Shown piece by piece: positions 11,259 through 56,771 of a stretch of 64,000 nt of DNA (within the stretch, counting starts at the first letter, position 1; the number at the start of each line of letters is the position of its first letter). A program made the translations under genes and the position numbers. The notes under the pieces were generated by a model. That model had not been told where the DNA came from. It did no database searches and saw only the letters and a list, made by a program, of their open reading frames with translations. The stretch spans positions 124,001 through 188,000 of the forward strand of contig NZ_PVNG01000011.1 of NCBI RefSeq assembly GCF_003001935.1. Direction: 5' to 3'. The DNA comes from Nonomuraea fuscirosea. Its GTDB lineage: Bacteria; Actinomycetota; Actinomycetes; Streptosporangiales; Streptosporangiaceae.

Positions 11259-12136
11259 CCAGTGTCGCCGCGGCCCGCAGGAAACTGGCGCTCAGCCGGT
11301 TCTGGGGCGAATACCGCCGCCACCGCGCCGGAGTGGCCGGCCTCGTGATCCTCGTCGCTGCCGTGCTGCTCGCGCTGATCGCCCCGCTGTTCATCGGCGA
11401 CGAGGTGACCAGCGTGGTCGAGAGCGTCGGCGAGAAGTTCGCGCCCCCGAGCCTCGGCGAGCCGTTCGGTACCGACGAGTCGGGCCGCTCCATCCTGCTC
11501 ATGGTGTGGTGGGGCTCGCGCACGTCCCTGCTCATCGGCTTCCTGGCCGCGCTGCTCAGCATCGTGATCGGCCTGGTGCTGGGCGTCGCCGCCGGCCACT
11601 TCCGCGGCTGGGCGGGCGCCGCCCTGATGCGGGTGACCGACTGGTTCCTCGTGCTCCCCTCGCTGGTCACGGCTCTCGTGCTGGCGGCCATCCTGGGCGG
11701 CAGCACCTGGACGATCATCATGGCCATCGGCATCACCACCTGGCCGTCCACCGCCCGCCTGATCAGGGCCCAGACGCTCGCCGTGGAGGCCAGGCCGTAC
11801 ATCGAGCGCTCCAAGGCGCTCGGCGGCGGCCACTGGCACATCACCACCCGCCACGTCCTGCCGAACGTGGCGCCGCTGCTGCTGGCCAGCACCACGCTGG
11901 AGGTGGCCAGCGCCATCGTGACCGAGTCCACCCTCGCCTTCCTCGGCGCCAGCTCCAACCGGACCTCCTGGGGCACCATGCTGCGGGCCTCGTACGACTT
12001 CGGCGCGGCCACGCAGGGCGCATGGTGGTACATCCTCATCCCCGGCCTGGCCATCCTCGCCGTCGTCATGGCGTTCACCCTGGTCGGGCGGGCGCTGGAA
12101 GCGGTGCTGAACCCCAGGCTCAGGAGGGCCGCGTGA
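11255..12136 (+). CDS. ABC transporter permease, DppC/OppC-like
   Basis: Second permease, 293 residues, starting at the GTG that overlaps the previous stop codon. It has the family N-terminus (RFWGEYRRHRAGVAGLVIL), the conserved EPFGTDESGRSILLMVWWG segment and the EAA loop PYIERSKALGGGHWHITTRH. Six helices are predicted. The final codons (LRRAA) and the stop lie inside the first copy of a 27-bp tandem duplication that also carries the RBS and GTG of the next gene. Confidence 0.93.
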   Translation: MTSVAAARRKLALSRFWGEYRRHRAGVAGLVILVAAVLLALIAPLFIGDEVTSVVESVGEKFAPPSLGEPFGTDESGRSILLMVWWGSRTSLLIGFLAALLSIVIGLVLGVAAGHFRGWAGAALMRVTDWFLVLPSLVTALVLAAILGGSTWTIIMAIGITTWPSTARLIRAQTLAVEARPYIERSKALGGGHWHITTRHVLPNVAPLLLASTTLEVASAIVTESTLAFLGASSNRTSWGTMLRASYDFGAATQGAWWYILIPGLAILAVVMAFTLVGRALEAVLNPRLRRAA

Positions 12137-12169
12137 CCGAGCAGGCTCAGGAGGGCCGCGTGACCGAGC
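12116..12169 (+). repeat. Exact 27-bp tandem duplication over a stop/start junction
   Basis: Positions 12116-12142 and 12143-12169 are identical. Each copy contains CAGGAGGG (RBS), GTG and an adjoining TGA in another frame. The first GTGA is the real stop of the permease. The second copy keeps frame (27 = 9 codons) and adds residues VTEQAQEGR to the ATPase or offers a second start. Confidence 0.97.
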
Positions 12170-13206
12170 ACGACGAGGCGACGCGGCCGGTGAGCCTGCT
12201 CGAACTCGATGACGTGTCAGTGACCTACCGCATCGCCTCGGGCGAGGTGCCCGCCGTGCGCGGGGTGTCGCTGACCCTCGACTCCGGAGCGGCACTCGGA
12301 GTCGCCGGCGAGTCGGGATCCGGCAAATCGACGCTGGCCATGGCGCTGCTCCGGCTCCTGCCCCGGGACGCGCGGGTCGGTGGCCGGATCCTGCTCGACG
12401 GCGAAGACGTGCTCGCCATGAAGTGGGGCCGCATGCGCGCCGTACGGTGGGCCGAGGCGTCCATCGTCTTCCAGGGCGCCCAGCACGGCCTCAACCCCGT
12501 GCGCAGGATCGGCGACCAGATCGCCGAGCCGCTGCTCGTGCACGGCCTGGCCAAGCCGGACGCCGCCCGCAAGCGCGTGGCCGAACTGCTCGACCAGGTC
12601 GGCCTGCCCGCCTGGCGGGCGCGCAGCTACCCGCACGAGCTGTCCGGCGGGCAGCGGCAGCGCGTCATGATCGCGATGGCCCTGGCCTGCTCGCCGCGCC
12701 TGATCATCGCCGACGAGCCGACCACCGCGCTCGACGTGATGGTCCAGGCCCAGGTGCTGAGCCTGATCAAGGAACTGATCGCCGAGCACGGGATCTCCCT
12801 GATCATGATCTCGCACGACCTGTCCGTGCTGGCGGACGTCTGCGACCGGCTCGCGGTCATGTACGCCGGCCGCGTCGTCGAACACGGCCCGTCCGCCGAG
12901 GTCTTCCACAAGGCCGAACACCCCTACAGCCGGGCCCTGGCCGCGGCCTTCCCGACCGTGGGCGACCCGGTGTCGCGGATGGCCCCCAAGGGCCTCGGGG
13001 GCGACCCGCCCGACCCCATGCAGTTGCCCGGGGGGTGCTCGTTCCATCCGCGCTGCCCGGTGGCGCTGGACGAATGCTCGACCCTGGACGTCCAGCTGTG
13101 GCCGGCGGGGCCGGCTCGCGCGGCCGCCTGCGTACACGTCAGGCCCACGGCGCCTTCAGACCCGGAGCAGGACGTCGAGGCGAAGAAGGAGGAGGAGTCC
13201 TCATGA
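12133..13206 (+). CDS. ABC transporter ATP-binding protein, DppD/OppD-like
   Basis: First of two ATPases, about 357 residues. Walker A is GESGSGKST, the signature is LSGGQRQRV, Walker B is [13 protein letters not shown] and the switch histidine lies in MISHDLSVL. The C-terminal oligopeptide extension has the cysteine motif [15 protein letters not shown], typical of this subfamily and able to bind an Fe-S cluster in homologues. Two GTG starts exist (12133, 12160), each with its own AGGAGG, because of the 27-bp duplication. The upstream one overlaps the permease stop and is annotated. Confidence 0.93.
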
Positions 13207-14324: not shown

Positions 14325-14978
14325 TCAGGCGAGGTCGGCGTCGTGGACCAGGATGGCGGCCTGGACGCGGTTGGCCAGGCCCAGCTTGGCCAGCACCCGG
14401 CTGACGTGGGCCTTGACCGTGGCCTCGGTCAGGCGTAGCTCGCGGCCGATCTCGGCGTTGGACAGGCCGCGGGCCAGGGCCCTGATCACGTCCTCCTCGC
14501 GCCCGGTGAGCGCGGCGAGTTGCTTGCGGGCGGCCTGTGCCCGGGAGGGGGCGCGGTCAGCGTAGGAGGAGATCAGGCGCTTGGTGACCGACGGCGAGAG
14601 CATGGCCTGACCCCCGGCCACCGTCCGGACGGCGGAGGCCAGCTCCCGGGGCGGGGTGTCCTTGAGCAGGAACCCGACCGCACCCAGCCGCAGGGCCTCA
14701 TGCACGTATTCGTCCAGGTCGAACGTGGTCAGCATGATCAGCTTGGGCGGCTCGGACTCCGCGAGGAGATGCCGTGCGGCGGTCAGGCCGTCCATGACCG
14801 GCATGCGTACGTCCATCAGCACCACCTCGGGCCGCAGCCGCCGCACAGCCGAGAGGGCCTCGGCACCGTCGCGCGCCTCACCGGCGATGGCGATGTCTCC
14901 CGACGCCTCCAGAATCAGCCGCAACCCGGACCGCACCAACTCCTCGTCGTCCACCAGCAGAACCCTGATCACCCGCAC
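14325..14978 (-). CDS. NarL/LuxR-family response regulator
   Basis: A 217-residue two-component regulator. The receiver domain (1-~120) has the acidic pair DDE at 10-12, the phospho-acceptor Asp56 in VVLMDVRMP and the lysine in FLLKD. A LuxR-type HTH follows (residues ~150-212, LTGREEDVIRALARGLSNAE then LTEATVKAHVSRVLAKLGL). It is transcribed with the sensor kinase at 15169, about 190 bp upstream. GTG at 14978 is used; GTG at 14972 is an equal alternative. Confidence 0.92.
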   Translation of the reverse strand: MRVIRVLLVDDEELVRSGLRLILEASGDIAIAGEARDGAEALSAVRRLRPEVVLMDVRMPVMDGLTAARHLLAESEPPKLIMLTTFDLDEYVHEALRLGAVGFLLKDTPPRELASAVRTVAGGQAMLSPSVTKRLISSYADRAPSRAQAARKQLAALTGREEDVIRALARGLSNAEIGRELRLTEATVKAHVSRVLAKLGLANRVQAAILVHDADLA

Positions 14979-15014: not shown

Positions 15015-15128
15015 CGAGTCTCACTCGGGAGCACACCATCCCGTCCCGTTCGGGCACTCGGTCGGGGTCGTGCCATCCCGCCTCGTTCAGACCCTTCGCC
15101 TGGACCGTCCCGTCCCCGCCGAGTTCGC
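15015..15128 (-). repeat. Degenerate ~37-bp tandem repeats between kinase stop and regulator start
   Basis: Units at about 15015-15054, 15055-15091 and 15092-15128 share a core like CATCCCGYCYCGTTC. They fill the gap between the histidine kinase stop (15169) and the response regulator start (14978), where such pairs normally overlap or nearly so. The copies are diverged, so boundaries are approximate. Confidence 0.5.
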
Positions 15129-15168: not shown

Positions 15169-16305
15169 TCACGGCGGGCTCGTCTCCCTGGACGGGAGTT
15201 TGGCGCTCACCAGGAAGCCGCCGGCGTCGTCCGGGCTGGTGCGCAGGGTGCCGCCGAGCAGTTCGACGCGTTCGCGGAGCCCGACCAGGCCCCAGCCCGC
15301 ACCCGGCACGTCTTCGTGAGGGTCGTGCGGGGCCTGGTTGCGCACTTCGACCTCCAGTTGCCCTGTGCCGTAGCGGATGAGGACGTCGGTGCCGGCGTTT
15401 CCGGCGTGTTTGTGCACGTTGGTGAGGGCTTCCTGGATCACGCGGTACGCGGTCCGCTCCACGGTGGCCTCCACCGGACGCGGCTCGCCCTCGTCGTGCC
15501 TGGTCACCGTGATGCCCAGGGCGCGGGACTGGTCGAGCAGCCGGTCGAGGTCGCCGAGCGTGGGCGGCGGGCGTACGTCGGCGTCGAGCGCCTCCCGCCG
15601 GGGTGAGCGCAGCACGCCGAGCACGTCGCGCAGGTTGGTCAGGGCCTCCCGGCCGATCCCGCCGATCAGGGCGGCGGCCCGCGCGGTCTCCTCGTCGGAC
15701 GTGCGCACCTCCAGCGCCCCGGCGTGCAGCACGATCAGCGACACCCGGTGGGCCACCACGTCGTGCATCTCCCTGGCGATCCTGGCCCGCTCCTGTGTCC
15801 TGGCCTGATCGGCCCGCATGACCTGCTCGCGTTCGAGCCGTTCCGCCCGTTCCTTGGCGGCCTCCAGCACCTCGTGCCTGGCCCTGGCCCACAGGCCGGC
15901 CACCAGCGGCAGGCCCATCACGGCCAGCGCCGTGAGCAGGGCGTTGCCCAGGGACGCGGTCATCATCTCCCGCCGGCCGCCGAACCACCCGCCGGCCAGC
16001 GCCGAGAGGCCGCACACCGCCACACAGCCGCCGCCGTAGGCGAGCAGGCCGCGCCTGCTCAGCGTGCGACCGGCGTGGAACGAGGCCACCAGCAGCGGTG
16101 GCCACATCGCGAGCCAGGCGTACGTGACGGCGCCCACGGCGGCCAGTGGCCACCAGGAGCGCCGGGCGTGCCAGGCGGTCAGGCCCGCGACGGCCGCGAC
16201 CGCGACGAGCACGGGGAGCGGCAGGCTCGACGGCACCCCGCCCTGACCGTGCAGGGTGAGCAGTGAGGCCGCGAAGACTCCGGCGCCGAGCAGAACGAAC
16301 CGCAT
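15169..16305 (-). CDS. NarL-type sensor histidine kinase (HisKA_3)
   Basis: A 378-residue membrane kinase. Four or five hydrophobic helices occupy residues 1-~145, then a coiled linker (RAERLEREQVMRADQARTQE), the dimerisation/phosphoacceptor helix with His181 in REMHDVVAHRVSL, and an HATPase domain with the N box (VIQEALTNVHKHA) and G box (GAGWGLVGLRERV). No extracellular sensor domain is visible. It pairs with the regulator at 14325. ATG 16305 was chosen; GTG 16311 two codons upstream is possible. No RBS is visible before either. Confidence 0.9.
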   Translation of the reverse strand: MRFVLLGAGVFAASLLTLHGQGGVPSSLPLPVLVAVAAVAGLTAWHARRSWWPLAAVGAVTYAWLAMWPPLLVASFHAGRTLSRRGLLAYGGGCVAVCGLSALAGGWFGGRREMMTASLGNALLTALAVMGLPLVAGLWARARHEVLEAAKERAERLEREQVMRADQARTQERARIAREMHDVVAHRVSLIVLHAGALEVRTSDEETARAAALIGGIGREALTNLRDVLGVLRSPRREALDADVRPPPTLGDLDRLLDQSRALGITVTRHDEGEPRPVEATVERTAYRVIQEALTNVHKHAGNAGTDVLIRYGTGQLEVEVRNQAPHDPHEDVPGAGWGLVGLRERVELLGGTLRTSPDDAGGFLVSAKLPSRETSPP

Positions 16306-16414
16306 GGTCACAGGGTAGGGGCAGGGCTGGAGATGGCATGACGACGAAAGTAGTAAGCGGCGGTCGACGATCGGAGCGTCCGCAGGAGCGCCCCTCGCGG
16401 CCAATGTGGAGCCC

Positions 16415-17581
16415 ATGCGTAGAACCCTCACCGTAACGACGGTGGTGTCGCTGAGCGTCCTCGGCCTCACCACCCAAGCCCAAGCCACCGCCCTTTCTCG
16501 CTCGGGGTATCTCGCTGCTTCGGGGCAAGTTGCCCGGACGGCACACTCCTCATTGCCCGCCGACCTCGCCAAGGCAGCGGGTCTGGCTCTGCCTGCCCCG
16601 ACAGGTAAGAGGCCCGTCGGCACGACCGGTCTTCATCTGGTCGACAAGAGCCGCCCCGATCCGTGGAATCCGGAGGCGAAGGAGCGGGAGCTGCTCGTCT
16701 CGCTCTGGTATCCGGCGAAGAAGGCCACCGGCAGGCGGGCCCCGTACATGACCGCGGCGGAGTCGCAGGCCGTGCTCAAGGACTATCCCGTGACGGACAA
16801 GGACGCCCTGGCCGGGGTCAGGACGCATGCCAGGGTCGACGCCCGGCCGGTGGGCGGGCGGCGGCCGCTGGTCGTCATGTCGCCGGGGTTCAGCTTCCCG
16901 CGCGCCACCCTGACCTCGCTGGCAGAAGACTTCGCCAGCAGGGGATACCTGGTCGCGGCCATCGAGCACACGTACGAGTCGGTCGGCACCACCTTCCCCG
17001 ACGGCCGCACCACCTCCTGCCTGGCCTGCGTGAAGGGGCAGGACAACGGGAAGGTGGCGGCGAGCCGGGTGAAGGACGTGCGGTTCGTGCTCGACCGTCT
17101 GATCGACGGCCGCTGGGGCAGGGCCATCGACCGGTCGAAGATCGCCATGGTGGGTCACTCGATCGGCGGGCACGCCACCGCCCAGACCATGCTCACCGAG
17201 CCCAGGATCAAGGCCGGCGTGAACCTGGACGGCTCGTTCGAGCTGACCGAGCCGATCAAGCGGCCGTTCATGCTGGTCGGGACGGCCAGCGGGCACACGC
17301 CGGAGGACGAGAAGTGGCGGCAGGCGTGGGCCCGCTTCACCGGCTGGAAGCGGTGGATCACGGTGCGGGGCACCGACCACTCGGCGTTCGTCGACTACGC
17401 CGTGCTCAGGCCGGCGCTGGGGCTGCCGGCGCAGGAGCTCGACGGCGCACGGGCCCTGGAGATCACCCGCGCCCACCTCGCGGGCTTCCTCGACCTGCAC
17501 CTGAGGGGCAAGCGGACCCCGGTCAAGAAGTATCCCGAGGTCACCGATCACACCCGGAACGCCTCAGCGGCGGCCCACTGA
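16415..17581 (+). CDS. Secreted alpha/beta hydrolase (PAF-acetylhydrolase isoform II/dienelactone hydrolase-like)
   Basis: About 388 residues, exported: the N-terminus (MRRTLTVTTVVSLSVLGLTT) is a signal peptide ending near AQATA. The nucleophile is the serine in MVGHSIGGHAT, the acidic residue probably lies in NLDGSF and the histidine in GTDHSAF. Layout and the SPGFSFPRATLT oxyanion region resemble platelet-activating-factor acetylhydrolase-like lipases and Streptomyces cutinase-like hydrolases. The last codons (ending TRNASAAAH) lie antisense to a duplicated tail of the neighbouring NmrA gene, so its C-terminus may have been acquired by that duplication. GTG 16406 is an alternative start. 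Confidence 0.85.
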   Translation: MRRTLTVTTVVSLSVLGLTTQAQATALSRSGYLAASGQVARTAHSSLPADLAKAAGLALPAPTGKRPVGTTGLHLVDKSRPDPWNPEAKERELLVSLWYPAKKATGRRAPYMTAAESQAVLKDYPVTDKDALAGVRTHARVDARPVGGRRPLVVMSPGFSFPRATLTSLAEDFASRGYLVAAIEHTYESVGTTFPDGRTTSCLACVKGQDNGKVAASRVKDVRFVLDRLIDGRWGRAIDRSKIAMVGHSIGGHATAQTMLTEPRIKAGVNLDGSFELTEPIKRPFMLVGTASGHTPEDEKWRQAWARFTGWKRWITVRGTDHSAFVDYAVLRPALGLPAQELDGARALEITRAHLAGFLDLHLRGKRTPVKKYPEVTDHTRNASAAAH

Positions 17582-17731
17582 CCGAAGCTGCCCGCCTCCC
17601 GGTCACACGCGTGACCCGCCGACACTCTCGGCGGTCCGCTGAGCGAAGTCGCCGGTGTCCCGGTCATCCGCGGAACGCGTCGGCGTGCTCCGTGGCCCAC
17701 TGGGCGAAGTCGCGCGCGTCCCGGCCGGTCA
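17550..17731 (-). repeat. Three degenerate copies of the NmrA gene 3' end
   Basis: Read on the minus strand, 17731-17669 encodes the true tail (DFAQWATEHADAF then RG). 17668-17615 encodes a decayed copy (DRDTGDFAQRTAES) and 17613-17550 a third (DREAGSFGQWAAAEAFRV, stop). Spacing is about 57-66 bp. The third copy overlaps the 3' end of the convergent hydrolase gene. Confidence 0.75.
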
Positions 17732-18488
17732 CTTCGCGTACGGTCGGGACCACGGTGTAGCCGGCCTCGGGCGTGTCGCCGAGGGCGCTCACGAGGAACT
17801 CGATGGTCTGCTCGGCCATGCCGTCCGCGGCCCACTTGGCGCGGGCCTCGTCCACGGTCAGCTCCACGAAGCGCACGTCCCTGCCGATGGCGGCGCCCAG
17901 GATCTCCACCTTCCGCTTCAGCGTGATCGCCTCGGGCCCGGTGATCGTGTACGTCCTGCCGCCGTGTCCCCCCTCGACCAGCACGGTCGCGGCCACGGCG
18001 GCGATGTCGCGTTCGTGCACGAGGGCGCTCAGCCGGTCGCCGAACGGCTCCTTGATGACGCCTTCGGTCCTGATCGCGTGCGCCCACCAGCGCAGTGTGT
18101 TGGACATGAACTCGACCGGGTTGAGCAGCGTCCACTCCAGCTCGTCGGCGGCCAGCGCCTGCTCAAGGGCGCCGTCCGTGCGCCCGCCGAGCACCGTGGC
18201 GCGCCGCACGCCGGCCGCGGCGGCCAGCTCGACCAGCCGGGCGGGGTCGGGAAGGGGTGTGTAGTCGTCGCCGGCGAAGGTGATGAAGTGCACGCCCGTG
18301 ACGCCTTCGAAGGCGGCGGCCACGGACTCGGGCCTGGCCAGGTCGCCGGCGACGACCTCGACGCCCGCGGGCAGCGCGGCCTTGCCGGGGTCCCGGGTGA
18401 GGGCCCGCACCTGAGCCCCCGCGTCGAGGAGCTCCTGGACGACGAGACGGCCGACGGTGCCGGTGGCTCCGGTGACGAGGAAGGTCAT
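17664..18488 (-). CDS. NmrA-like/atypical SDR NAD(P)-binding oxidoreductase
   Basis: A 274-residue NAD(P)-binding protein of the NmrA/HSCARG group: the glycine motif TGATGTVG at residues 7-14, followed by the family segments RALTRDPGKA, AGDLARPESVAAAF and YTITGPEAIT. There is no canonical YxxxK catalytic pair, so it may be a redox sensor or an NADPH-dependent reductase. An operator-like inverted repeat overlaps its promoter, implying regulation, perhaps by the TetR protein at 19786 or an unlinked one. Two decayed copies of its 3' end follow the stop codon. Confidence 0.85.
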   Translation of the reverse strand: MTFLVTGATGTVGRLVVQELLDAGAQVRALTRDPGKAALPAGVEVVAGDLARPESVAAAFEGVTGVHFITFAGDDYTPLPDPARLVELAAAAGVRRATVLGGRTDGALEQALAADELEWTLLNPVEFMSNTLRWWAHAIRTEGVIKEPFGDRLSALVHERDIAAVAATVLVEGGHGGRTYTITGPEAITLKRKVEILGAAIGRDVRFVELTVDEARAKWAADGMAEQTIEFLVSALGDTPEAGYTVVPTVREVTGRDARDFAQWATEHADAFRG

Positions 18489-20365: not shown

Positions 20366-20440
20366 GGGTCAGCAGGCGCTGATCAGCGCCGGAGCGCGGC
20401 CACATCGGGTCAGAAGGCGCTGATGGTGGCCGGGGCGCGT
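20366..20440 (-). repeat. Duplicated 3' end of the MDMPI-like gene
   Basis: 20407-20440 (native) and 20366-20399 are homologous over 34 bp at a 41-bp offset. On the minus strand the native end reads RAPATISAF-stop and the downstream copy reads RAPALISAC-stop. The copy is not part of any gene. Confidence 0.75.
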
Positions 20441-30520: not shown

Positions 30521-31936
30521 GTGGCGGCGCCGGATCCGCGACGGCGCGCGTTGGCCGTCTGCCTCGTGGCCGCGTTCATGACGGGGCTCGACGTGAGCAT
30601 CGTCAACGTCGCGCTGCCGTCGATCCGCGACGGGCTGCACGCCTCGGACGACGGACTGCAGTGGACGGTGTCCGGGTACGCGCTCACGTTCGGCCTCCTG
30701 CTGGTCCCGGCCGGACGGCTGGGCGACGCCAGGAGCCGCCGGACGATCTTCATGTGGGGCGTGGTGCTCTTCACCCTCTCCAGCGCCGCCTGCGGCCTGG
30801 CCGGCAGCATGAACGTGCTGATCGTCTCGCGGCTGATCCAGGGCCTGGCGGCCGGGATGATGAACCCGCAGGTCTCCGGCATGATCCAGCAGATGTTCCA
30901 GGGGTACGAGCGGGGCCGCGCCTTCGGCGCCCTCGGCGCCACCATCGGCGTGGCCACCGCCGCCGGACCGCTGATCGGCGGCGCGCTGGTGACCGCCTTC
31001 GGCGCCGCTCACGGATGGCGGTGGGTGTTCCTGGTGAACCTGCCGATCGGGCTCATGCTGCTGCCGCTGGCCTGGAAGCTGCTCCCGAGGCAGCGGCAGG
31101 TGCACCGGCGGCCGGAGAGCATGGACCCGGTGGGCGTGCTGCTGCTCGGGATCGGCGTGGCGGGGCTGCTGCTGCCGTTCATCCAGCGGCACCAGTGGGA
31201 GGGCGAGGCCAAGTGGCTGCTCGTGCCGGCCGCGCTGGTGGTGCTGGCCGGATTCGTGACCTGGGAACGGTTCTACCGGCGCGAGCCACTGATCACCCTG
31301 GCGCTCTTCCGCAAGCGCTCCTACAGCCTGGGCTCGGCCATCGCGCTGTTCTACTTCGCCGGCTTCACCGGCATCTTCTTCATCTTCACGCTGTACCTGC
31401 AGAGCGGGCACGGCTACAGCCCGCTGCTGGCCGGGCTGGCGATCACTCCGTTCGCGCTCGGCTCGGCCTCGGCGGCCGTGGTCGGCGGCCATCTGGTGGG
31501 GCGGCTGGGGCGGCGGCTGGTGGCCATCGGGCTGTCCATGGTGATCGCCGGGCTGCTCGCCACGATGGCGGCCACCGCGCTGGTGCCAGGACAGGCGACG
31601 GGGCTGGCGACCGCGCTGCCCCTGCTGCTCGCGGGCACGGGCAGCGGCCTGGTCATCTCGCCCAACCAGGCCATCACGCTGTCGGAGGTGCCGCCGGAGG
31701 GCGGCGGCAGCGCGGCGGGGGTGCTGCAGACCGGGCAGCGCCTCGGGTCGGCGATCGGGATCGCGGCGGCGGGCACGACGTTCTTCGGCTCGCTGGGGCA
31801 GGGCTGGGCGACGGCGTTCAGGCACGGGCTCCTCGTGGTGGTGCTCGCGGTCGCCATCGCCCTGTCCGCCGCCCTCTACGACCTCCTCCACACCTCCCGC
31901 TCACCCCGTAAGACCACCCACCCCTCACCCTCGTGA
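30521..31936 (+). CDS. DHA2-family (EmrB/QacA-like, 14-TMS) MFS drug exporter
   Basis: A 471-residue proton-driven efflux pump with 14 hydrophobic helices. Motif D1 is FMTGLDVSIVNVALPSIRDG, motif A LGDARSRRTIF, and motif C in helix 5 is GATIGVATAAGPLIGG, all typical of DHA2 members such as QacA and EmrB. Substrates are usually toxic lipophilic cations or antibiotics. GTG at 30521 follows an AGGGGGTG RBS. The stop codon (31936) lies in the first of several degenerate direct repeats, each of which contains another TGA. Confidence 0.9.
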   Translation: MAAPDPRRRALAVCLVAAFMTGLDVSIVNVALPSIRDGLHASDDGLQWTVSGYALTFGLLLVPAGRLGDARSRRTIFMWGVVLFTLSSAACGLAGSMNVLIVSRLIQGLAAGMMNPQVSGMIQQMFQGYERGRAFGALGATIGVATAAGPLIGGALVTAFGAAHGWRWVFLVNLPIGLMLLPLAWKLLPRQRQVHRRPESMDPVGVLLLGIGVAGLLLPFIQRHQWEGEAKWLLVPAALVVLAGFVTWERFYRREPLITLALFRKRSYSLGSAIALFYFAGFTGIFFIFTLYLQSGHGYSPLLAGLAITPFALGSASAAVVGGHLVGRLGRRLVAIGLSMVIAGLLATMAATALVPGQATGLATALPLLLAGTGSGLVISPNQAITLSEVPPEGGGSAAGVLQTGQRLGSAIGIAAAGTTFFGSLGQGWATAFRHGLLVVVLAVAIALSAALYDLLHTSRSPRKTTHPSPS

Positions 31937-31995
31937 AGTCAGCCTCCGCTCACCCTCGTGAAGCCTCCTCACCTGCGTGACGCCATCTCCGGCCC
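31922..31995 (+). repeat. Short direct repeats over the exporter stop codon
   Basis: CTCACCCTCGTGAAG occurs at 31924-31938 and again at 31950-31964, followed by the diverged CTCACCTGCGTGACG (31968-31982). Each copy carries TGA in the same context as the native stop. Confidence 0.75.
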
Positions 31996-32018
31996 AGCCT
32001 CTTGAAGCCGTTGCCCGT

Positions 32019-33184: not shown

Positions 33185-34546
33185 GTGCGGCTGTTTCCCC
33201 GCTCGATCCGGGCGCGCCTGACCACGTTGGCGGTCCTGGTGGCGGGCGTCGTCCTCATCGGCTCGGCCTTCCTCACGCTCGGCATCGTGCCGGACAGCCT
33301 GCATGGCGTCGTCCACGGCCGGGTCGAGCTGGCCGTACGACGGGTCGCCATCGAAGCCCGTAACGGCAACCTGCCCGCGCAACTGGAGCCGCCGGCCCGC
33401 GTGCCACTGCTCCGCGTGGTGGCGGACGACGGCACGGTGGTCGCGAGCAGCCCCTCCTTCCCCGAGGCGGCGCGCGTCACGGCGGCGCTACGGCCGGGCA
33501 CGTTCGACCGGGTCGAGACCACCAGGATCGAGCTGACCAGGCACGAGGAGGACGCCGAGACCAACCACCTGGTCAAGGCCATCCGGGTGCGGACGCCCGA
33601 CGGCCCCGTCACCGTGTACGGGGCCTCCTCCCTCGCCGACGTGGAGCGCGGCCTCATGGTGATCCACCTCATGGTGTTCCTCGGCATCCCGCTCATCCTG
33701 GGGCTGATCGGCAGCATCACCTGGGCCGTGGTCAGGGGCGCTCTGCGGCCGGTCGAGCGGATCAGGGCCGAGCTGGCCGAGATCACCGGGCGTGACCTGA
33801 GCCGGCGCGTCCCCGTACCCGGGACCGGCGACGAGATCGCGGGGCTGGCCGCCGCCACCAACCACACCCTCGACCGTCTCGAACGCTCGGCCGAGACCCA
33901 GCGCCGCTTCGTCGCCGACGCCTCGCACGAGCTGCGCAGCCCGGTCTCGGCCCTGCGCGCCCAGCTGGAGGTGGCCGGCGCCTACCCCGGTGAGACCGAC
34001 TGGCCGGTCGCCGGGGCGCGTGCCCTGGCCGCCGCCGACCGCCTCACCGGCATCATCGACGAGCTGCTCATGCTGGCCAAGCTCGACGCGGGCGCGATCA
34101 CCCAGCGCGGGGTGGTGGACCTGTGCGGCCTGGTCGCCGACCAGGTACGCCGCCGCGAAGGCGGCAAGATCCCCATTCATCCGGACCTGTGCGACCAGGC
34201 CCCGGTCCACGGCTCGTCGCTGCAGCTCGACCGGCTGCTGACCAACCTGCTCGACAACGCCGCCCGGCACGCCGCGTCCCGCATCGACGTCGAGGTGACG
34301 GTACGGGGGGACCGGGTGGTGCTGACGGTGACCGACGACGGCGACGGGATCGCGCCGCAGGACAGGGAGCGGGTGTTCGAGCGGTTCACCCGGCTGGAGG
34401 CGGCCAGGGCCAAGGACAAGGGCGGCAGCGGCCTCGGCCTGCCCTTGTCGAGGGAGATCGCCACGGTGCACAAGGGCACCCTCACCCTCGCCGACCACGA
34501 GCCCGGCGCCCGATTCGTGGCCGTCCTGCCCCTGCACCGATCCTGA
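33185..34546 (+). CDS. Sensor histidine kinase (HAMP, HisKA), apparently orphan
   Basis: About 453 residues. Helix 1 (RARLTTLAVLVAGVVLIGSA) and a second helix (~residues 158-182, LMVFLGIPLILGLIGSITWA) enclose a ~130-residue extracellular domain. A HAMP domain (LRPVERIRAELAEITGRDLS) leads into the phosphoacceptor FVADASHELRSPVSALRAQL and an HATPase domain with LLTNLLDNAARHA, DDGDGIAPQDRERVFERF and GSGLGLPLSREIA. Such kinases are normally preceded by an OmpR-type regulator, but none is adjacent. GTG 33146 gives a longer alternative N-terminus. A 33-bp duplication follows at the stop. Confidence 0.88.
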   Translation: MRLFPRSIRARLTTLAVLVAGVVLIGSAFLTLGIVPDSLHGVVHGRVELAVRRVAIEARNGNLPAQLEPPARVPLLRVVADDGTVVASSPSFPEAARVTAALRPGTFDRVETTRIELTRHEEDAETNHLVKAIRVRTPDGPVTVYGASSLADVERGLMVIHLMVFLGIPLILGLIGSITWAVVRGALRPVERIRAELAEITGRDLSRRVPVPGTGDEIAGLAAATNHTLDRLERSAETQRRFVADASHELRSPVSALRAQLEVAGAYPGETDWPVAGARALAAADRLTGIIDELLMLAKLDAGAITQRGVVDLCGLVADQVRRREGGKIPIHPDLCDQAPVHGSSLQLDRLLTNLLDNAARHAASRIDVEVTVRGDRVVLTVTDDGDGIAPQDRERVFERFTRLEAARAKDKGGSGLGLPLSREIATVHKGTLTLADHEPGARFVAVLPLHRS

Positions 34547-34600
34547 GCCCCAGCCGTCTTGCCCCTGCACCGATCCTGAGCCCCGGCCGTTCTGCTCCTA
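34520..34600 (+). repeat. 33-bp tandem duplication of the kinase C-terminus and stop
   Basis: 34520-34552 and 34553-34585 differ at only two positions, and a diverged third start follows from 34586. The first copy encodes AVLPLHRS-stop, the second encodes the same residues again in frame after the stop, followed by a second TGA. Confidence 0.95.
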
Positions 34601-34654
34601 CAGCCGGGCCCGGTCCGGCGGACCGGCCGCCGCGGCGGCCCTAGACTCGGCGGA

Positions 34655-43612: not shown

Positions 43613-43620
43613 TCATAGGG

Positions 43621-44359: not shown

Positions 44360-44361
44360 GA

Positions 44362-44991: not shown

Positions 44992-44997
44992 AGTGGG

Positions 44998-45211: not shown

Positions 45212-45219
45212 TCGTAGCG

Positions 45220-48361: not shown

Positions 48362-48365
48362 TCAC

Positions 48366-48387: not shown

Positions 48388-48752
48388 ACATGCAAGATGC
48401 TGCCCGGGCCAGTGGCGCGCACGGCCGCGCGTAAGGGGTGAGGAGTCATCCATGGTCGCTCGCCACCAAGTTTCCGCCCAGCTCAAAGGCCCGCCCTCAC
48501 ATCTGGTTTCCGGGCGTAGATGCTCAAGGAGCAGGCCTGACCATCTCGCCCGCCATCGTCCGGGACAAGCCGGGCAGGCAAGGGTCGCGGCCTCGCTGTG
48601 GCGCTCCACCTGCTACCCGTGGCCCTGGCTCTCTTCGGTCGGGCCAACGGCAGAGGGGCTGATCAGTCGGACGGGGAAGTGGACGAAGCTTCCGTTCCCA
48701 GACCGTGCCATGAGAAGCTGCGCTGATGATCCGGACCGGGACGTAGGAGTCG
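48388..48752. mobile_element. Degenerate second copy of the foldback element and flanks
   Basis: 48535-48667 starts GCCTGACCATCTCGCCCGCC, continues with GGGACAAGCC and GCGCTCCACCTGC, and ends CAGAGGGGCTGATCAG, matching 43260-43414 in order with substitutions and deletions. Its arms no longer pair well. No gene is visible elsewhere in this interval. Confidence 0.6.
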
Positions 48753-49232
48753 ATGATGGGCAGGAAAGCGGAGCAGGAACCGCCACCCAGCGACGCTGAG
48801 ACTGCCGAACACATGCGAACCCTGGCCGAACTCTTCGTGGAGCACACACGCGAAGACGGATACGCCTTCGACTGGGACCCCGCGTTCATTCACCACCTCG
48901 ACAACTACTGCGCCGAGTTCGTCGCGTCGAAGCCGCCTCCTGAGGTCATTCACAGCGTGATCATGGGTGCGGGGGCGTATCTGGGCGAGATGATCGTCCG
49001 GAACGGTGACTGGAAATGGGTGTACTGCACGGACGAGAAGGCCGCTGCGGTGGAGAGCCCTGAAGAACTCCGCGGATATCCGCATAACAAAGTCGCCAAG
49101 CGGATCCATGAGGGGAACGAGCACAATCTTGAGGCGTTCTTCAAGTACGCCATGACCGGCGAGGCACCGCACGGGACGATCGCCCGTGTCAGCAAGCCTT
49201 CATGGTGGCAACGGCTGAGGTCGAGAGCCTGA
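48753..49232 (+). CDS. Hypothetical protein, possibly DUF3806-like
   Basis: A 159-residue soluble protein with no confident family. The order GAYLGEMIVRNGDWKWVY, YPHNKVAKRIHEGNEHNLEA and a C-terminal basic tail resembles DUF3806-type proteins, which have an alpha/beta core with a G-x-x-L/F-G-E helix start. TAGGAG lies upstream; ATG 48756 gives better RBS spacing than 48753. Foldback-element and att-flank relics lie on both sides, so it is probably island cargo. Confidence 0.65.
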   Translation: MMGRKAEQEPPPSDAETAEHMRTLAELFVEHTREDGYAFDWDPAFIHHLDNYCAEFVASKPPPEVIHSVIMGAGAYLGEMIVRNGDWKWVYCTDEKAAAVESPEELRGYPHNKVAKRIHEGNEHNLEAFFKYAMTGEAPHGTIARVSKPSWWQRLRSRA

Positions 49233-49596
49233 TCGTCGTGCCATCGAGGGCGGTGGCGAGGGGGCGCCCAGGGTGGCTTGCGCCTGACTGGTTCGTTTGT
49301 CTCAGGCCCCAGGCTTTGATCATCCCGCCGGGACCACCGCCACCGCGATTCTGGGGTTGAGGAAGATTGCGATCACATCCGGTACGACAACACGCGGGAT
49401 GCGGCTCACTTCTTGAATCTATGTCTTCGGTAAGGGACTCTGGCGGCTTCAGCACCGGGAGGGTCGCGGCATCGTGGTAAGTGGCTGGCCCTTATCGGCC
49501 AAGCGTTCTCGGCAAGTGCTGCCGGATGAAGGACCTGTACCAGGATCGAGAGAAACCCGATAGCGGTCGGCTTGCGTGCACCGCGATGATGTCCCG
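49233..49596. other. Non-coding region with att-flank and foldback-end relics
   Basis: CTGATCGTCGTGCCAT followed by AGGGCGGTGGCGAGGGG (49229-49265) matches the att-proximal repeat at 43456-43500 with a short deletion, and TGATCATCCCGCC (49318-49330) matches the left foldback end. No att core is present. No gene is seen. Confidence 0.5.
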
Positions 49597-50292
49597 ATGC
49601 AGAAAGCGACCGCTTACCATGACGGGCTCGGTGACTTCTTCGCCGAACGTGCTGATACGAGCCCCCACAACGCCTACACGGACAGACCCGCGATGCTGCG
49701 GCTCGCCGGCGACGTTTCCGGTGCTCGGATTCTGGACGTGGGATGCGGGGCGGGTCACTACGCGTCCGAACTGTCGGCTCGCGGTGCCCAAGTCGTCGGG
49801 ATCGAGGGCAGTGCCACGCTGCTGCGCCATGCGCGAGTGCGCCTGAACGGGCATGCGGAACTGGTCCTGCACGATCTGGAAGAGCCGCTCGCCTTCGCTG
49901 CTGACGCGTCATTCGACGGTGCGGTCTGTGCCCTCGTGTTTCACCACATCAGGAATCGGGAGCAGTTGCTGAGCGAGCTATGCCGTGTGCTGCGACCAGG
50001 TGGATGGCTGCTGATGTCCACCAGTCATCCCACAGCCGACTGGGATCACTTCGGAGGTTCGTACTTCAGTCACGAATGGAGTGACCTGGTTCTCGCCGGT
50101 GGTGAGCATTCGATCCACTACCAGCGCATGCCGTTGGAGACCTTTCTGGGCGAGCTCCTGGCCGCCGGGTTCGTGCTGGAGCAATTGGTCGAGCCCCGGC
50201 CCACGGCCGCCTTGCGGGAATTCGATGAAGCTGCGTACGACAAGCTCCGCCAAGCGCCGTCCTTTCTCGCCGTGAGACTGCGGCGTCCCTGA
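49597..50292 (+). CDS. Class I SAM-dependent methyltransferase
   Basis: A 231-residue methyltransferase. Motif I ARILDVGCGAGHYASEL (~residues 45-61) binds SAM, the acidic residue after strand 2 is GIEGSATLL, motif post-I/II is SFDGAVCALVFHHI, and motif III LRPGGWLLMSTSHP. The C-terminal part (AGGEHSIHYQRMPLETFLGE) caps the active site as in UbiE/Methyltransf_11 members. Substrate unknown. GTG 49576 is a possible earlier start; 31 bp separate it from the next gene. Confidence 0.87.
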   Translation: MQKATAYHDGLGDFFAERADTSPHNAYTDRPAMLRLAGDVSGARILDVGCGAGHYASELSARGAQVVGIEGSATLLRHARVRLNGHAELVLHDLEEPLAFAADASFDGAVCALVFHHIRNREQLLSELCRVLRPGGWLLMSTSHPTADWDHFGGSYFSHEWSDLVLAGGEHSIHYQRMPLETFLGELLAAGFVLEQLVEPRPTAALREFDEAAYDKLRQAPSFLAVRLRRP

Positions 50293-50323
50293 GCGCCCGA
50301 CCATCGCTGGCAGGGGCGATAAC

Positions 50324-50821
50324 ATGACGATCGTGGCGGATTGGGTGCTTCGACCGGCTTCGGTGGCAGATGTCGAGGCGGTGGCTGAGTTGCGGGCTGT
50401 GGTGTTGAGGCGAGATCTCCAGCGGCTCGGGCGATATGACGAACAGCGGGTGCGGCAGCGGTTGCGGGACGGATTCGTGCCTGCGCATACCTGGATGATC
50501 GAGGCGAATGGTGCTCTGGCCGGCTGTGTGGCACTGCGGTCGGCGGAGGACGCCTACTGGCTGGAGCACTTCTATCTGGATCCGGAGGTGCAGGGCCAGG
50601 GCATCGGTACTGCCGTTCTGAGCAGGCTGTTGGAACGGTGTGATGGCGAGGGCGCCGTGGTTCGGCTGAATGTGCTGCAGGGGAGTCCGGCCCGTCGGCT
50701 GTACGCGCGGCATGGATTCACGGTCGAGACGGAGGACGAGGTGGACGTGTTCATGGTGCGTCACGCTCCTTCGCCTGGCGATCAACTGGCCGAAACGGCC
50801 GCCGGCAGCCGTCGTCCATAG
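50324..50821 (+). CDS. GNAT-family N-acetyltransferase
   Basis: A 165-residue acetyltransferase. The acetyl-CoA site is in LEHFYLDPEVQGQGIGTAVL, followed by VVRLNVLQGSPARRLYARHG (strand 5/helix 4) and FTVETEDEVDVFM. It probably acetylates a small amine. It lies 31 bp after the methyltransferase and may be co-transcribed. Confidence 0.85.
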   Translation: MTIVADWVLRPASVADVEAVAELRAVVLRRDLQRLGRYDEQRVRQRLRDGFVPAHTWMIEANGALAGCVALRSAEDAYWLEHFYLDPEVQGQGIGTAVLSRLLERCDGEGAVVRLNVLQGSPARRLYARHGFTVETEDEVDVFMVRHAPSPGDQLAETAAGSRRP

Positions 50822-50973
50822 CGGGAAGCGCTCGAAGGGATCGGGGGAGGGCCGTTCCCCAGCCCTCGGAACGGCGGGCGTACCGGCGTTCGCGTGCGAC
50901 CTGACTTTCGACAGGGTCGAGGGTTGACGATCGACAGATGATTCGCTCCGCTCATTCTTGACACGCTCGCCCC

Positions 50974-51684
50974 ATGAATTCGTACTTTCCCGGGCGGTGG
51001 ATCAGCGGTGCGACACTCACCCTGGGGCCGGTGATCATGTGTGCCGGATATCTGCTGCGTTACCTGAGCACAGTCACCGCTCTCACCCCTCAGCAGCAAG
51101 CGTGGGCCGAGGCGCAGCCCTTCGCCGCCTATGGCCAACTCCTCGCGTACACCTCGGCACCCGCCCTGCTCACCCTCGCCTATGCGGTTTTCGCGCTGGG
51201 GGTGATGTTGCTCTTCCCCGCTTTCGTCGCCCTGGCTCAGCGAATCGGTGGCAGCCTGGCTTTCTGGGGCGCCACCCTTTTGGTCGCCGGGCTTTTCTCC
51301 CGCCTTTACTTCGCCGGCGCCGACCAGACTGCCTTTCAGCTCACCGAAAGCCTTGGGCTGGACCAGGCGACGCAGGCGATCATGAAGGAATACGTCGACA
51401 TTTCTTACGGACCGTGGCGGATACCGGTCTGGGCCTCGGTCGGTCAGTACGCGGGCTCGCTCCTCCTGGCCGTCGCCGCCTGGCGATCAGGGCTCTTCGG
51501 CACCGCCCGCGCCTTGATGCTGCTGCTGGCAGGAGGCACCTGGATGGGCGTACTGAAGAGCGCCTCCATCCCTGACGTACTGGTCACCGGCCTGCTCTGT
51601 GTGGCCCTGGTTCCGCTGGGTGTGCGGGTGCTGCGGGATCGGCTGCCTGCCCCAGGCGGCCGTTCGAAGATATTCACCTGGTGA
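50974..51684 (+). CDS. Six-helix membrane protein of unknown function
   Basis: A 236-residue integral membrane protein with about six hydrophobic helices (for example TLTLGPVIMCAGYLLRYL, LLTLAYAVFALGVMLLF, FWGATLLVAGLFSRLYFAGA). A conserved-looking acidic loop (AIMKEYVDISYGPWR) links helices 4 and 5. No family is recognised with confidence; DUF4386-like proteins have a similar layout. No RBS is obvious before ATG 50974. Confidence 0.65.
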   Translation: MNSYFPGRWISGATLTLGPVIMCAGYLLRYLSTVTALTPQQQAWAEAQPFAAYGQLLAYTSAPALLTLAYAVFALGVMLLFPAFVALAQRIGGSLAFWGATLLVAGLFSRLYFAGADQTAFQLTESLGLDQATQAIMKEYVDISYGPWRIPVWASVGQYAGSLLLAVAAWRSGLFGTARALMLLLAGGTWMGVLKSASIPDVLVTGLLCVALVPLGVRVLRDRLPAPGGRSKIFTW

Positions 51685-51738
51685 GAAAGGATCCGCCGCG
51701 GAGGTTACGGGACTTACGCGCTTTCCATTCCTTGTGGT

Positions 51739-52302
51739 TCACGACCGGTTGGCCTTCCATTCGTGGGAGAGGGTCGCGTAGACGCATTCGGTGCCCCAGC
51801 GGTCGCCGTCGAGATGGCTTTCGATGAGGCGTGCTTCTTGGCGCATGCCGAGGCGTTCGCACACGTTCGCGGAACCGGTGTTGAGTGCGTCGAGGCGGGC
51901 GAAGAGCCGGTGGGTGCCCAGCTCGGCGAAGGCCAGTTCGGCGACGGCGAGGGCTGCTTCCGTCGCGTAGCCCCGGCCGCCGTACGCGGGGTTGAAGATC
52001 CAGCCGATCTCGGTCTGGCGCGCCCGCGTGCTCGCCAGCTTCAGCACCACTTCGCCGAGCACCGTCGCCTCGCCGGTGCGGCAGACCGCGATCACCAGGT
52101 CATCGCCGTCCTCGGCCCACGCCGGGTCGGCTGCGCGCCGGGTCAGGCTCTCCGCGCACTGCTCGCGGGTGAGGGGCGGACGGTAGAGGTAGCGGGCCAC
52201 CTCGGGGAGGCTCTGGTAGGCGTACAGGTCATCGAGGTCGCCGGGCGTGAACTGACGGAGGGTGAGCCGTTCGGTGGTGGTGGGCAGCGGGAGCTTGGTC
52301 AT
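51739..52302 (-). CDS. RimJ/RimL-type GNAT acetyltransferase
   Basis: A 187-residue GNAT protein of the RimJ/RimL subgroup: TTERLTLRQFTPGDLDDLY at the N-terminus, IGWIFNPAYGGRGYATEAAL as the acetyl-CoA site, and RLFARLDALNTGSANVCERL then GMRQEARLIES. Members acetylate ribosomal proteins, amino acids or antibiotics. GGGAAG precedes ATG 52302; the long upstream frame to 52515 crosses the ArsR promoter and is rejected. Confidence 0.87.
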   Translation of the reverse strand: MTKLPLPTTTERLTLRQFTPGDLDDLYAYQSLPEVARYLYRPPLTREQCAESLTRRAADPAWAEDGDDLVIAVCRTGEATVLGEVVLKLASTRARQTEIGWIFNPAYGGRGYATEAALAVAELAFAELGTHRLFARLDALNTGSANVCERLGMRQEARLIESHLDGDRWGTECVYATLSHEWKANRS

Positions 52303-55330: not shown

Positions 55331-55441
55331 GGCGACAACGTTCGCGGAATCGGCGGCCGGGGACATCGGAGCACGGTCTGGTCCTGAGATTCATACCGTG
55401 GTCTGAGTCGGAGGCGGGTCGGCGCGGGCTAACGTTCCGGC

Positions 55442-56623
55442 ATGACCGATGGCCTCCGGCCGCCGCTGCTGTTGAGGCTGCGGCCCGCGTTCCTGCTCCT
55501 CGGCGACGTCGCGCTCGCCGTGTTCCTGACGTCCTTCGCCGTGCTGGCCGTCATCGAACAATTCCCGCTGAACGGGAGCATCGAGCCGCTGCCCGTCCTC
55601 GCCGGCGTGCTCATGGGGGTGCCGTTGGCGGTTCGCCGCCGGTGGCCTGTTCCGGTGCTGGCGGTCGTGAGCATGGCGAGCATACTGGCGGTGGCGCTGC
55701 GGTGGATGCCGCCCCACGCGGCCGTCGTGCCCGACCTGCTTCTCGTCTTCGCGATCTATCCGGTGGCCGTGACGGAGGCGACGCGTCGTGCCGTGGCCGC
55801 GCTCGTGCTGTCCGTGGGCGGGTTCGCCGGGGCGGTCCTGTTCGCGGTGGCGCAGGAGCCGCGACCGGATTGGGGCAGGTCGTTACCCGTACTCGTCACG
55901 CAGATCATCGTTCCGGTCGCGGTGTGGGTGGTCGGACGGGCGGTCCGTGCGCGCCGGGAGCACGAGACGCGAGCCGTCCGGCAGGTGCTGACCGACGAAC
56001 GGTTGCGCATCGCGCGCGACCTGCACGACGGCGTCGCGCACAGCCTGAGCCTGATCACCGTGCAGGCGTCCGTGGCCCTCCATGTCGGCGACGAGCGGCC
56101 CGACGAAGCCCGCTCCGCCCTGACCGTCATCGAGGACACCAGCCGCGAGGCAGCCAGGGAGCTGCGGCGCATGCTCGGTCTGCTGCGCGCCGTCGACGAG
56201 GATCCGCAGGACGCCGCGCAGTTGGAGCCGGCGCCGACCGCCGATCGGCTGGCCGAGCTGGCCGACCACGCGACCGCCGCCGGGGCCCAGGTCGCCCTGC
56301 GAATCGGTGACGGGATCGACACCGTCCCGGCTACCATCGGGCTCGCGGCGTACCGCATCGTGCAGGAGTCCCTGACCAACGTGATCAAGCATGCGGCGCC
56401 GGCGCGTTGCGTGGTTCGGGTCGACAGGACGGACAACGCCATGGAGATCGAAGTGACCGACGACGGCCGCCGGGCTCTGATCGGCCATCCTGCGGGCGGG
56501 CATGGGTTGATCGGCATGCGTGAACGTGTCGCCGTCTATGGCGGTGACTTCGAGGCCGGGCCGGTGGCGGGGCGGGGGTTCCGGGTGCACGCGAGGCTTC
56601 CATTGGAAGGGGTGCCCGCGTGA
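55442..56623 (+). CDS. NarL-type sensor histidine kinase (HisKA_3)
   Basis: A 393-residue kinase with about five helices in residues 15-~172 (FLLLGDVALAVFLTSFAVLA onward), the phosphoacceptor His195 in ARDLHDGVAHSLSLI, N box RIVQESLTNVIKHA and G box GGHGLIGMRERV. No extracellular sensor domain. It was once directly coupled to the response regulator: its stop is a GTGA, as is the true regulator start 125 bp on, with degenerate copies of the junction between. Confidence 0.9.
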   Translation: MTDGLRPPLLLRLRPAFLLLGDVALAVFLTSFAVLAVIEQFPLNGSIEPLPVLAGVLMGVPLAVRRRWPVPVLAVVSMASILAVALRWMPPHAAVVPDLLLVFAIYPVAVTEATRRAVAALVLSVGGFAGAVLFAVAQEPRPDWGRSLPVLVTQIIVPVAVWVVGRAVRARREHETRAVRQVLTDERLRIARDLHDGVAHSLSLITVQASVALHVGDERPDEARSALTVIEDTSREAARELRRMLGLLRAVDEDPQDAAQLEPAPTADRLAELADHATAAGAQVALRIGDGIDTVPATIGLAAYRIVQESLTNVIKHAAPARCVVRVDRTDNAMEIEVTDDGRRALIGHPAGGHGLIGMRERVAVYGGDFEAGPVAGRGFRVHARLPLEGVPA

Positions 56624-56771
56624 GTGGGTCTGGGCGCATGGGAGCGCTCCGGTGGGAGGGGCATTCGCGTGAACGGGGTCTTGGAGGGAGTGCTCGTGTG
56701 AGTGGGGCCCGGGTGTACGAGAGTCCTCCGGTGGGAGGGGTGGCCGCGTGAGCGGGGTTCGGGTGCTGATT
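56601..56771 (+). repeat. Four degenerate copies of the kinase-regulator junction
   Basis: Units at ~56601-56649, 56650-56690, 56683-56729 and 56730-56771 each contain a GGGAGGGG-like RBS and GTGA followed by (G)TGGGG/CGGGGT. Unit 1 holds the kinase stop, unit 4 the regulator start. Each would begin a peptide like VSG/VNG. Confidence 0.85.

Follow-up and report, generated by a model that had tools for sequence, protein, structure and literature searches.

The 64,000-nucleotide stretch of DNA analysed here (the window, positions 124,001 to 188,000 of contig NZ_PVNG01000011.1 of Nonomuraea fuscirosea, referred to as C11) contains seven gene junctions at which a short piece of DNA has been duplicated in tandem. 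These duplications, together with their counterparts elsewhere in the genome, are probably best explained as products of slippage that are filtered by the harm they do, with an additional filter on coupling and reading frame at junctions where the stop of one gene and the start of the next share the nucleotides NTGA. Between two such NTGA motifs, the spacer length was found to leave a remainder of 2 on division by three much more often than a remainder of 1. Most of the remainder-2 spacers hold an open mini open reading frame (ORF) that starts on the NTG of the upstream gene's stop and whose TGA overlaps the start of the next gene, termed here a relay ORF.

The draft genome comprises 12.18 Mb in 93 contigs. 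The gene map was produced with our own gene caller (1338 genes in the first 1.648 Mb and 2007 in 2.448 Mb), and the genome-wide statistics rest on this one genome, of which 2.448 Mb were sampled. Tandem arrays were counted in 1.648 Mb with a period of at least 12 and a TRF score of at least 50, while a score of at least 60 was used for the coverage figures. For comparison, 53 other Nonomuraea genomes were available for searching, one genome per species; these relatives are not independent of one another. The comparison with other genera covers one region and 80 kb of Streptomyces only.

Reading frame at coupled junctions

The duplication of an NTGA junction with a unit of length L can have three outcomes: a remainder of 0 extends the downstream protein, a remainder of 2 generates a bridging ORF, and a remainder of 1 gives neither. 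Among the same-strand NTGA/NTGA pairs separated by 12-99 nt (n = 66), remainders 0, 1 and 2 were found 17, 15 and 34 times, and the three control classes gave 57/65/54, 36/35/29 and 35/25/21. The ratio of remainder 2 to remainder 1 thus differed between the coupled pairs (34 vs 15) and the controls (104 vs 125; Fisher p = 0.003). An open bridging ORF was carried by 30 of the 34 remainder-2 pairs. The earlier note on this DNA had described the outcome as spare stop codons and extra starts, a description that misses the main consequence, namely the frame rule and the bridging ORFs at coupled junctions.

The two junction contexts were alike (at least 22/40) in 10 of 77 NTGA pairs with L of 15-150, where 0.19 would be expected with shuffled partners, and eight of these ten had remainder 2; no alike contexts were detected in 337 pairs with a non-NTGA start. 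Copies of stop contexts were scored with a threshold of at least 26/40 within 150 bp, since the looser threshold of at least 22/40 returned mostly noise (91 same-strand NTGA stops vs 64.4 chance matches). At the stricter threshold, 11 of 566 same-strand NTGA stops had a strong copy (0.6 expected), with remainders 0/1/2 of 2/1/8. The other three stop classes displayed no such bias (8/4/7 among 709 stops, 4/5/2 among 167 and 10/11/14 among 559). A search for a consensus Shine-Dalgarno sequence with NTGA, occurring twice, gave seven matches in 2.45 Mb (3/2/2 for remainders 1/2/0); there was no frame bias, and the pattern is too rare to serve for counting.

Relay ORFs in other species

The kinase/regulator junction at 15015 could be read in the window and in 18 of the 20 fetched relatives (two have no junction), giving 19 sequences. 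The distance between the two NTGA motifs was 0 in ten of them, an in-frame extension of 63 nt was present in one (G053), and a relay ORF was found in the remaining eight. The relay distances were 35, 86, 128, 128, 182, 200 (the window), 230 and 386 nt, all of remainder 2, and a remainder-1 distance was found in none of the 19. All eight relay ORFs are open, measure 12-129 codons and end on the regulator start. In the relative with the longest one (G027, locus L089), the 129 codons are largely in-frame repeats (KTHKT..PPANVTAAA), as if the ORF had grown in multiples of three.

Similar results were obtained for three ABC transporter junctions, which were read in 80 named loci each (239 of 240 readable); the best named relatives of the window permease are Nonomuraea species. 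The start lay on the stop NTGA in 55, 57 and 41 of the 80 loci, extended ones excluded, and a single NTGA overlap (-4 nt) is the usual state of these junctions in relatives. All nine positive out-of-frame spacers (>3 nt) after an NTGA stop were relay ORFs, with lengths of 14, 38, 65, 71, 71, 80, 83, 89 and 128 nt; of these, six come from five Nonomuraea genomes, while Kribbella supplies two and Planomonospora one. In the four rows classified as having no relay, the distances are negative and the genes overlap. Counts of start extensions (23, 3 and 25 loci) were based on extrapolated starts, negative values included, and were not used. The 89-nt permease/ATPase insert of [Actinomadura] parvosata subsp. 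kistnae, which was counted among the Nonomuraea, clearly consists of three junction copies, 39 + 50 nt apart. The same junction in the window went the other way, with GTGA at 12133, 12160 and 12190 (27 + 30 nt) all in one common frame, so the ATPase can start up to 19 codons before the start of its relatives. In a coarse count, the permease/ATPase motif distance exceeded 40 nt in 5 of 39 Nonomuraea loci and 3 of 41 others, and the expansion is therefore not restricted to Nonomuraea; 13 Streptomyces loci had distances of 21-40, and one Kribbella locus had no motif.

In one Planomonospora operon (L172) the permease/ATPase and permease/permease junctions are both expanded. One expansion lengthens an N-terminus in frame by 60 nt and by eye resembles a 33-bp in-frame repeat; the other is a relay ORF of 71 nt.

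Four further junctions of the genome were compared with relatives. The 92-bp duplication at C11:193524 was missing in nine relatives with both halves among the matches listed (their alignments to the two copies are offset by 92 in eight and 95 in one, read by eye). At C1:776736 the first 20 spanning relatives listed were all shorter, by 14-62 nt, and 18 of these 20 by a remainder-2 length; lower-identity rows were left out of this count, and one of them (G025, 67%) was longer. At C5:207825 all five relatives were shorter. A mixed result was obtained at C4:60621, where 11 of 16 spanning stretches were shorter and five longer; in 14 of the 16 the difference has remainder 2, which would fit relatives that retained an in-frame junction.

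The relay ORFs might instead be genuine small protein genes inserted between the two partners, as they are open, reach 129 codons and have a coupled junction at either end. This is quite improbable given their range of 12-129 codons and their scarce common sequence, only 2 of 28 peptide pairs at the 15015 junction falling below E = 0.05 (best 0.001). In addition, at least those of G027 and G036 look by eye as if made of internal repeats, and the ten species at distance 0 have no such ORF at all.

Origin and distribution of the duplications

A total of 158 perfect tandem duplications with periods of 12-399 were collected, of which 122 have two copies. In 71 of these 122, the unit ends carry short direct repeats, seen as 4 bp or more of additional match at the end, against 2.9% by chance; an incomplete third copy left by an earlier round would give the same picture and was not told apart. 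This agrees with the slippage proposed in the earlier note, and its idea of a continuous process is supported by the unequal decay of the copies and by junctions that are expanded differently from species to species. The period remainders 0/1/2 were 69/0/0 inside genes, 3/3/8 at stops, 3/0/0 at starts, 1/0/0 where stop and start were both covered, and 44/13/14 in intergenic DNA. The intergenic excess of remainder 0 suggests that some of these duplications lie in genes missed by the caller.

When the 597 tandem arrays were compared with random placement, 57 overlapped a stop (23.0 expected, 2.5 times commoner) and 171 were wholly intergenic (65.3 expected, 2.6 times commoner). Arrays were rarer at starts (9 vs 24.8), across stop and start together (5 vs 11.0) and inside genes (355 vs 473.0). 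Arrays were thus enriched at stop codons and, to a similar degree, in intergenic DNA. The even presence of repeats that the earlier note had named as speaking against its reading was largely found for mid-intergenic positions and not for the inside of genes. Strong arrays were present in 57 of 189 convergent gaps in the 1.648 Mb. In gaps below 300 bp the array coverage was 0.18-0.25 for convergent, 0.03-0.05 for same-strand and 0.01-0.02 for divergent genes, and above 300 bp it was 0.093, 0.081 and 0.045, respectively. The 80-kb Streptomyces sample held 350 arrays per Mb (362 here) and a strong array in one of 12 convergent gaps; it is too small to judge whether the phenomenon is specific to the genus.

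The position of the copies was evaluated for 152 convergent stops whose gaps measure 130 bp or more. Of the positions in the gene, 0.7-3.3% had a copy no farther than 150 bp away; the share was 7.9% on the stop itself and 13.8-19.7% between +40 and +100. With 348 convergent stops (gaps of at least 40) the values were 10.1% at the stop and 17.5% at +40. Same-strand 3' flanks were raised too (9-13% at +20 to +100). Values at starts were at or below the level inside genes (1.1% of 362 divergent and 1.6% of 248 same-strand starts), and the control with swapped contexts gave no copy in 724. Of the 76 arrays in convergent gaps of 20-400 bp, 48 touch a stop, close to the 41.8 obtained when arrays are spread uniformly over harmless positions. 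The 3' flank forms a plateau that has the stop at its shoulder and not at its centre. Duplications centred on stop codons, as the earlier note had them, are not what the profile displays, and a stop-centred hotspot was consequently rejected. Nor is a process acting at gene ends supported, as the excess covers the whole 3' flank, most of all where convergent gaps are short, and starts show none. An excess in the 3' flank with none at starts would be expected if harmful duplications are removed.

A mutational hotspot at gene ends, for instance through collision of convergent transcription or terminator hairpins, would fit the contrast between convergent and divergent gaps below 300 bp. Although it may contribute, it is distinctly unlikely as the explanation, since the stop shows no peak, the same-strand 3' flanks are raised as well and the contrast shrinks in gaps above 300 bp, while selection on promoters accounts for the divergent deficit without any hotspot.

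Tolerance alone might suffice: duplications would pile up where they are harmless, and the frame rule would reflect the chance openness of short spacers in DNA of 70% GC. This accounts for the 3'-flank profile, the convergent excess, the deficit at starts, the 69 of 69 in-frame duplications inside genes and the near-uniform overlap with stops, and it is in line with the weak bias among dissimilar junctions (<16/40), which gave 14/12/21. It is nevertheless rather unlikely, because it leaves unexplained why remainder 2 exceeds remainder 1 solely where NTGA stands at both ends, and why the followed junctions gave 17 relay ORFs (8 + 9) and no positive remainder-1 spacer after an NTGA stop.

Slippage with a filter for coupling and frame has several points against it besides this weak bias. 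Fifteen of the 66 NTGA/NTGA pairs at 12-99 nt have remainder 1, which makes the rule a bias and not a law; the same remainder is found for the best-scoring copy (35/40, C4:61423) and for three long overlaps at the ATPase/ATPase junction (distance -44). Only some relay ORFs still resemble junction duplications, and a genuine small protein gene could pass for one. The eight relay ORFs at 15015, given their weak local similarity, may derive from few insertions and not from eight independent events; likewise, the 38-, 65- and 71-nt inserts at the 12133 junction look related by eye. Mononucleotide shuffles keep single relay ORFs open with a probability of 0.11-0.92 each, and the gene starts throughout are those of our own caller. 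Finally, the excerpted text of PMC10666635 cites reporter studies with coupling over 73-850 nt, which would weaken the selective force.

According to the proposed mechanism, short tandem duplications (~12-150 bp) would arise genome-wide by slippage between short direct repeats, and selection would decide which survive: inside genes those with lengths divisible by three, and past gene ends most of them, being harmless. A second filter would act at the shared stop/start NTGA, where the ribosome that ends the first gene must reach the second. Inserts of 3n would extend the downstream protein, inserts of 3n+2 would give a relay ORF that overlaps each of its neighbours by 4 nt, and inserts of 3n+1 would break coupling, be removed by selection and hence become rarer. 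By restoring the -4 overlap at both ends, a relay ORF would keep the ribosome on the message; later its length may change in either direction in steps of three, and its sequence may be lost while the frame is held. The selective force proposed for the frame filter is the almost complete loss of coupling at a distance of ~20 nt in E. coli and Haloferax, as reported in the excerpted text of PMC10666635. We infer that relay ORFs are translated and that the preserved coupling is the selected property.

The duplicated junctions of the window

The duplication at each of the seven loci was stronger than in any of 60 dinucleotide shuffles of a stretch chosen around it (0/60). The perfect one at 12116 has period 27 (29/29 identical), and the others are decayed to different degrees: 15015 (period 37, 31/44), 17550 (period 61, 66/92), 20366 (period 41, 27/33), 31922 (period 44, 32/43, to which TRF adds a 25-bp unit), 34520 (period 33, 44/50) and 56601 (period 79, 41/54). 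The weakest is 15015, with a score of 14.1 against a shuffle maximum of 12.9. The duplications named in the earlier note, including this one that it had held only probable, are therefore real, and they occur as described there, on both strands, in unrelated genes and from identical to decayed. Their settings differ. The locus at 12116 is an ABC permease/ATPase overlap, and those at 15015 and 56601 separate a histidine kinase from a LuxR-type response regulator. At 34520 the final codons of a histidine kinase are repeated along with its stop, and 17550, 20366 and 31922 lie between convergent genes. At the multi-copy junction at 56601, two relay ORFs (43 and 17 codons) terminate on the regulator start, and a 10-codon ORF joins 56669 to 56698. 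The coordinates are collected in Table 1.

Table 1. Features at the duplicated junctions of the window
Feature	Coordinates	Strand	Remarks
ABC transporter permease (BPD_transp_1)	11255..12136	+	stop within first GTGA
Perfect 27-bp tandem duplication	12115..12170	+	spans permease stop / ABC ATPase start
ABC transporter ATPase (oligopeptide type)	12133..13206	+	
Response regulator (receiver + GerE/LuxR)	14325..14972	-	downstream of relay ORF
Relay ORF, 67 codons	14969..15172	-	GTGA 15172 (kinase stop), GTGA 14972 (regulator start); 200 nt = 2 mod 3
37-bp period duplication (31/44)	15036..15116	-	within relay ORF; 0/60 shuffles
Histidine kinase (HisKA_3)	15169..16416	-	upstream of relay ORF
Alpha/beta hydrolase-like gene (PAF-AH_p_II)	16415..17581	+	left convergent member
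61-bp period duplication (66/92)	17568..17720		shared 3' tails of two convergent genes; genes apart here, overlapping in relatives
NmrA / NAD(P)-binding gene	17664..18488	-	right convergent member
41-bp period duplication (27/33)	20366..20439		convergent gap; end of minus-strand gene 20410-21048
25/44-bp duplications	31897..32009		convergent gap; end of MFS gene 30521-31936
33-bp unit, 2.4 copies	34520..34602	+	repeats last codons + stop of histidine kinase 33185-34546
Histidine kinase (HisKA_3)	55442..56623	+	stop in GTGA 56620
GTGA at 56620, 56669, 56698, 56748	56620..56751	+	multi-copy kinase/regulator junction
Response regulator (receiver + GerE/LuxR)	56748..57413	+	start in GTGA 56748

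For the regulator at 56748-57413, our caller set the start at 56922, and the receiver domain together with the GTGA junction put it at 56748. Duplicated junctions of the NTGA type may thus cause misannotation of starts.

Spacer lengths, as measured in one flank comparison across relatives, reveal a lineage-specific gain at four of the loci. At 12136 the spacer is 64 nt, against 6-10 nt with a single NTGA in 16 of 20 relatives and 31-96 in the other four. The corresponding values are 169 nt vs 53 in 10 of 10 relatives with both flanks found (17581), 155 nt vs 57-80 in 11 of 11 relatives (34546), and 204 nt vs 76 in 3 of 3 orthologues (56623), the last comparison leaving out a fourth match, which is a more distant kinase/regulator pair (L095). 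At 15015, 20366 and 31936 the spacers of relatives differ in both directions, with 23-375 nt across 16 relatives at 20366 and 77-476 nt across 12 at 31936. An assembly artefact is barely conceivable: the genome is a draft of 93 contigs, yet the units are short (12-92 bp), the copies are mostly diverged, and the assemblies of other species have versions of their own.

Separation of convergent genes

The hydrolase-like and NmrA-like genes at 17581 overlap tail to tail in all ten relatives with both flanks, by 40 bp in nine and by 10 bp in one (G006). In the window they stand apart with both tails intact because the shared tail was copied. In the whole sample, 46 convergent stop contexts had a copy scoring 26/40 or better. 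Fourteen of the copies, from ten gene pairs, extend at least 10 bp into the neighbouring gene, the copy distance exceeding the gap. These ten pairs may formerly have overlapped, a reading partly built into the way they were selected. One of the ten still overlaps, and 64 of 726 convergent ends do so overall.

Such a boundary duplication would be lossless, as the first copy stays with the left gene and the last copy with the right one; overlapping genes would be separated and neither broken. The overlapping genes of phage phiX174 have reportedly been decompressed by synthesis, and the likeness lies in the parting of overlapping genes by duplicating their common stretch. The difference is that the event at 17581 is natural, as it presumably is at the other convergent pairs.

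Comparison with known systems

The junctions with relay ORFs share their architecture with the MIRU of senX3-regX3, in which the unit contains an ORF that is coupled, at a spacing of -4 nt, to the gene that follows, according to the text available from PMC12548453. In both cases tandem units occupy a kinase/regulator junction, and the MIRU unit lengths of 77 and 53 bp (as given in an excerpt of PMC4213456) are both 3n+2, like the relay ORFs described here. An ORF with putative coupling at -4 nt was found at 56620-56751 and at 15172-14969. MIRUs differ in being described as dispersed and apparently mobile, whereas the three units searched in the whole genome (12116, 34520 and 56601, three of the seven loci) had no dispersed homologous copies and are private to their own junctions, and, where an origin is visible, it is local duplication of the junction itself, which accounts for the clear cases. 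Elsewhere in the genome, the 34520 and 56601 units found matches at chance level only (best E 0.08 and 0.27). A weak match (49/64, E 9e-4) of window positions 12130-12192 was observed at C5:45871-45933, inside an opposite-strand gene and without NTGA junctions; it is probably due to chance.

A mobile, MIRU-like repeat family that inserts at stop/start junctions would explain the architecture shared with that described in PMC12548453. With three units not dispersed and copies that resemble their own junction, it is very improbable. A named repeat element or mobile family was rejected on the first of these grounds, and a search of the window against Rfam returned one tRNA only. By analogy, the junctions described here may act like a MIRU junction without belonging to the MIRU family.

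The stop/start overlap itself is that of termination-reinitiation. It differs in that coupling, in the portion of PMC10666635 available, is nearly lost at ~20 nt, whereas the spacers here measure 14-386 nt and hold an ORF that could restore the -4 overlap. Short delivery ORFs, as in bicistronic designs, pass ribosomes to the next gene, a role that relay ORFs would share, and short ORFs can bring ribosomes to a coupled gene in the account excerpted from PMC12548453. The relay ORFs differ in standing between two genes, starting on the upstream stop, being free in sequence and being able to arise by tandem duplication. Prokaryotic tandem repeats and satellites are described in the available part of PMC6749651 as short arrays with lengths in multiples of three where coding, as seen here; the differences are that the perfect ones here are mostly two-copy (122/158), that the excess lies in 3' flanks and that no common unit was found. 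Our searches of open-licence literature returned nothing on tandem duplication of NTGA junctions outside the MIRU line of work.

Other features of the window

About 2 kb of degenerate nested tandem repeats were observed at 58800-60730, with units of 5, 14, 17, 20, 25, 60 and 297 bp among others. They lie in a strongly G-skewed stretch (skew 0.29 over 56-60 kb) with no called gene, and the minus-strand ORF at 58681-59703 had no Pfam match. Three different short arrays (13/26/39, 38 and 12/23 bp) share one divergent gap at 30281-30513, unlike other divergent gaps, which rarely hold arrays. The region 40000-52000, where GC falls to 0.64, adjoins a tRNA-Gly (40412) and has few called genes; an inositol monophosphatase-like protein and a SUKH-1 (SMI1/KNR4) protein are encoded there. 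It is possibly an integrated or recently acquired region.

Implications

It is an evenly balanced proposition that relay ORFs form a general actinobacterial class, conserved in frame, and at the upstream stop and downstream start that bound it, but in neither sequence nor length, and born from slippage duplication of NTGA junctions, which links coupled genes as they drift apart. MIRUs would then be the one case that later became mobile, and boundary duplication would also decompress convergent overlaps. Annotators should be aware that start codons after duplicated junctions may be misplaced. Relay ORFs offer a possible origin for some of the short ORFs between bacterial genes and for the architecture of MIRUs, and boundary duplication would allow overlapping genes to come apart. 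As a measurable filter on mutation, the remainder of the spacer length would indicate for each operon, ahead of any experiment, whether coupling matters there. The disputed reach of coupling would become testable, because natural spacers of 14-386 nt have been kept open.

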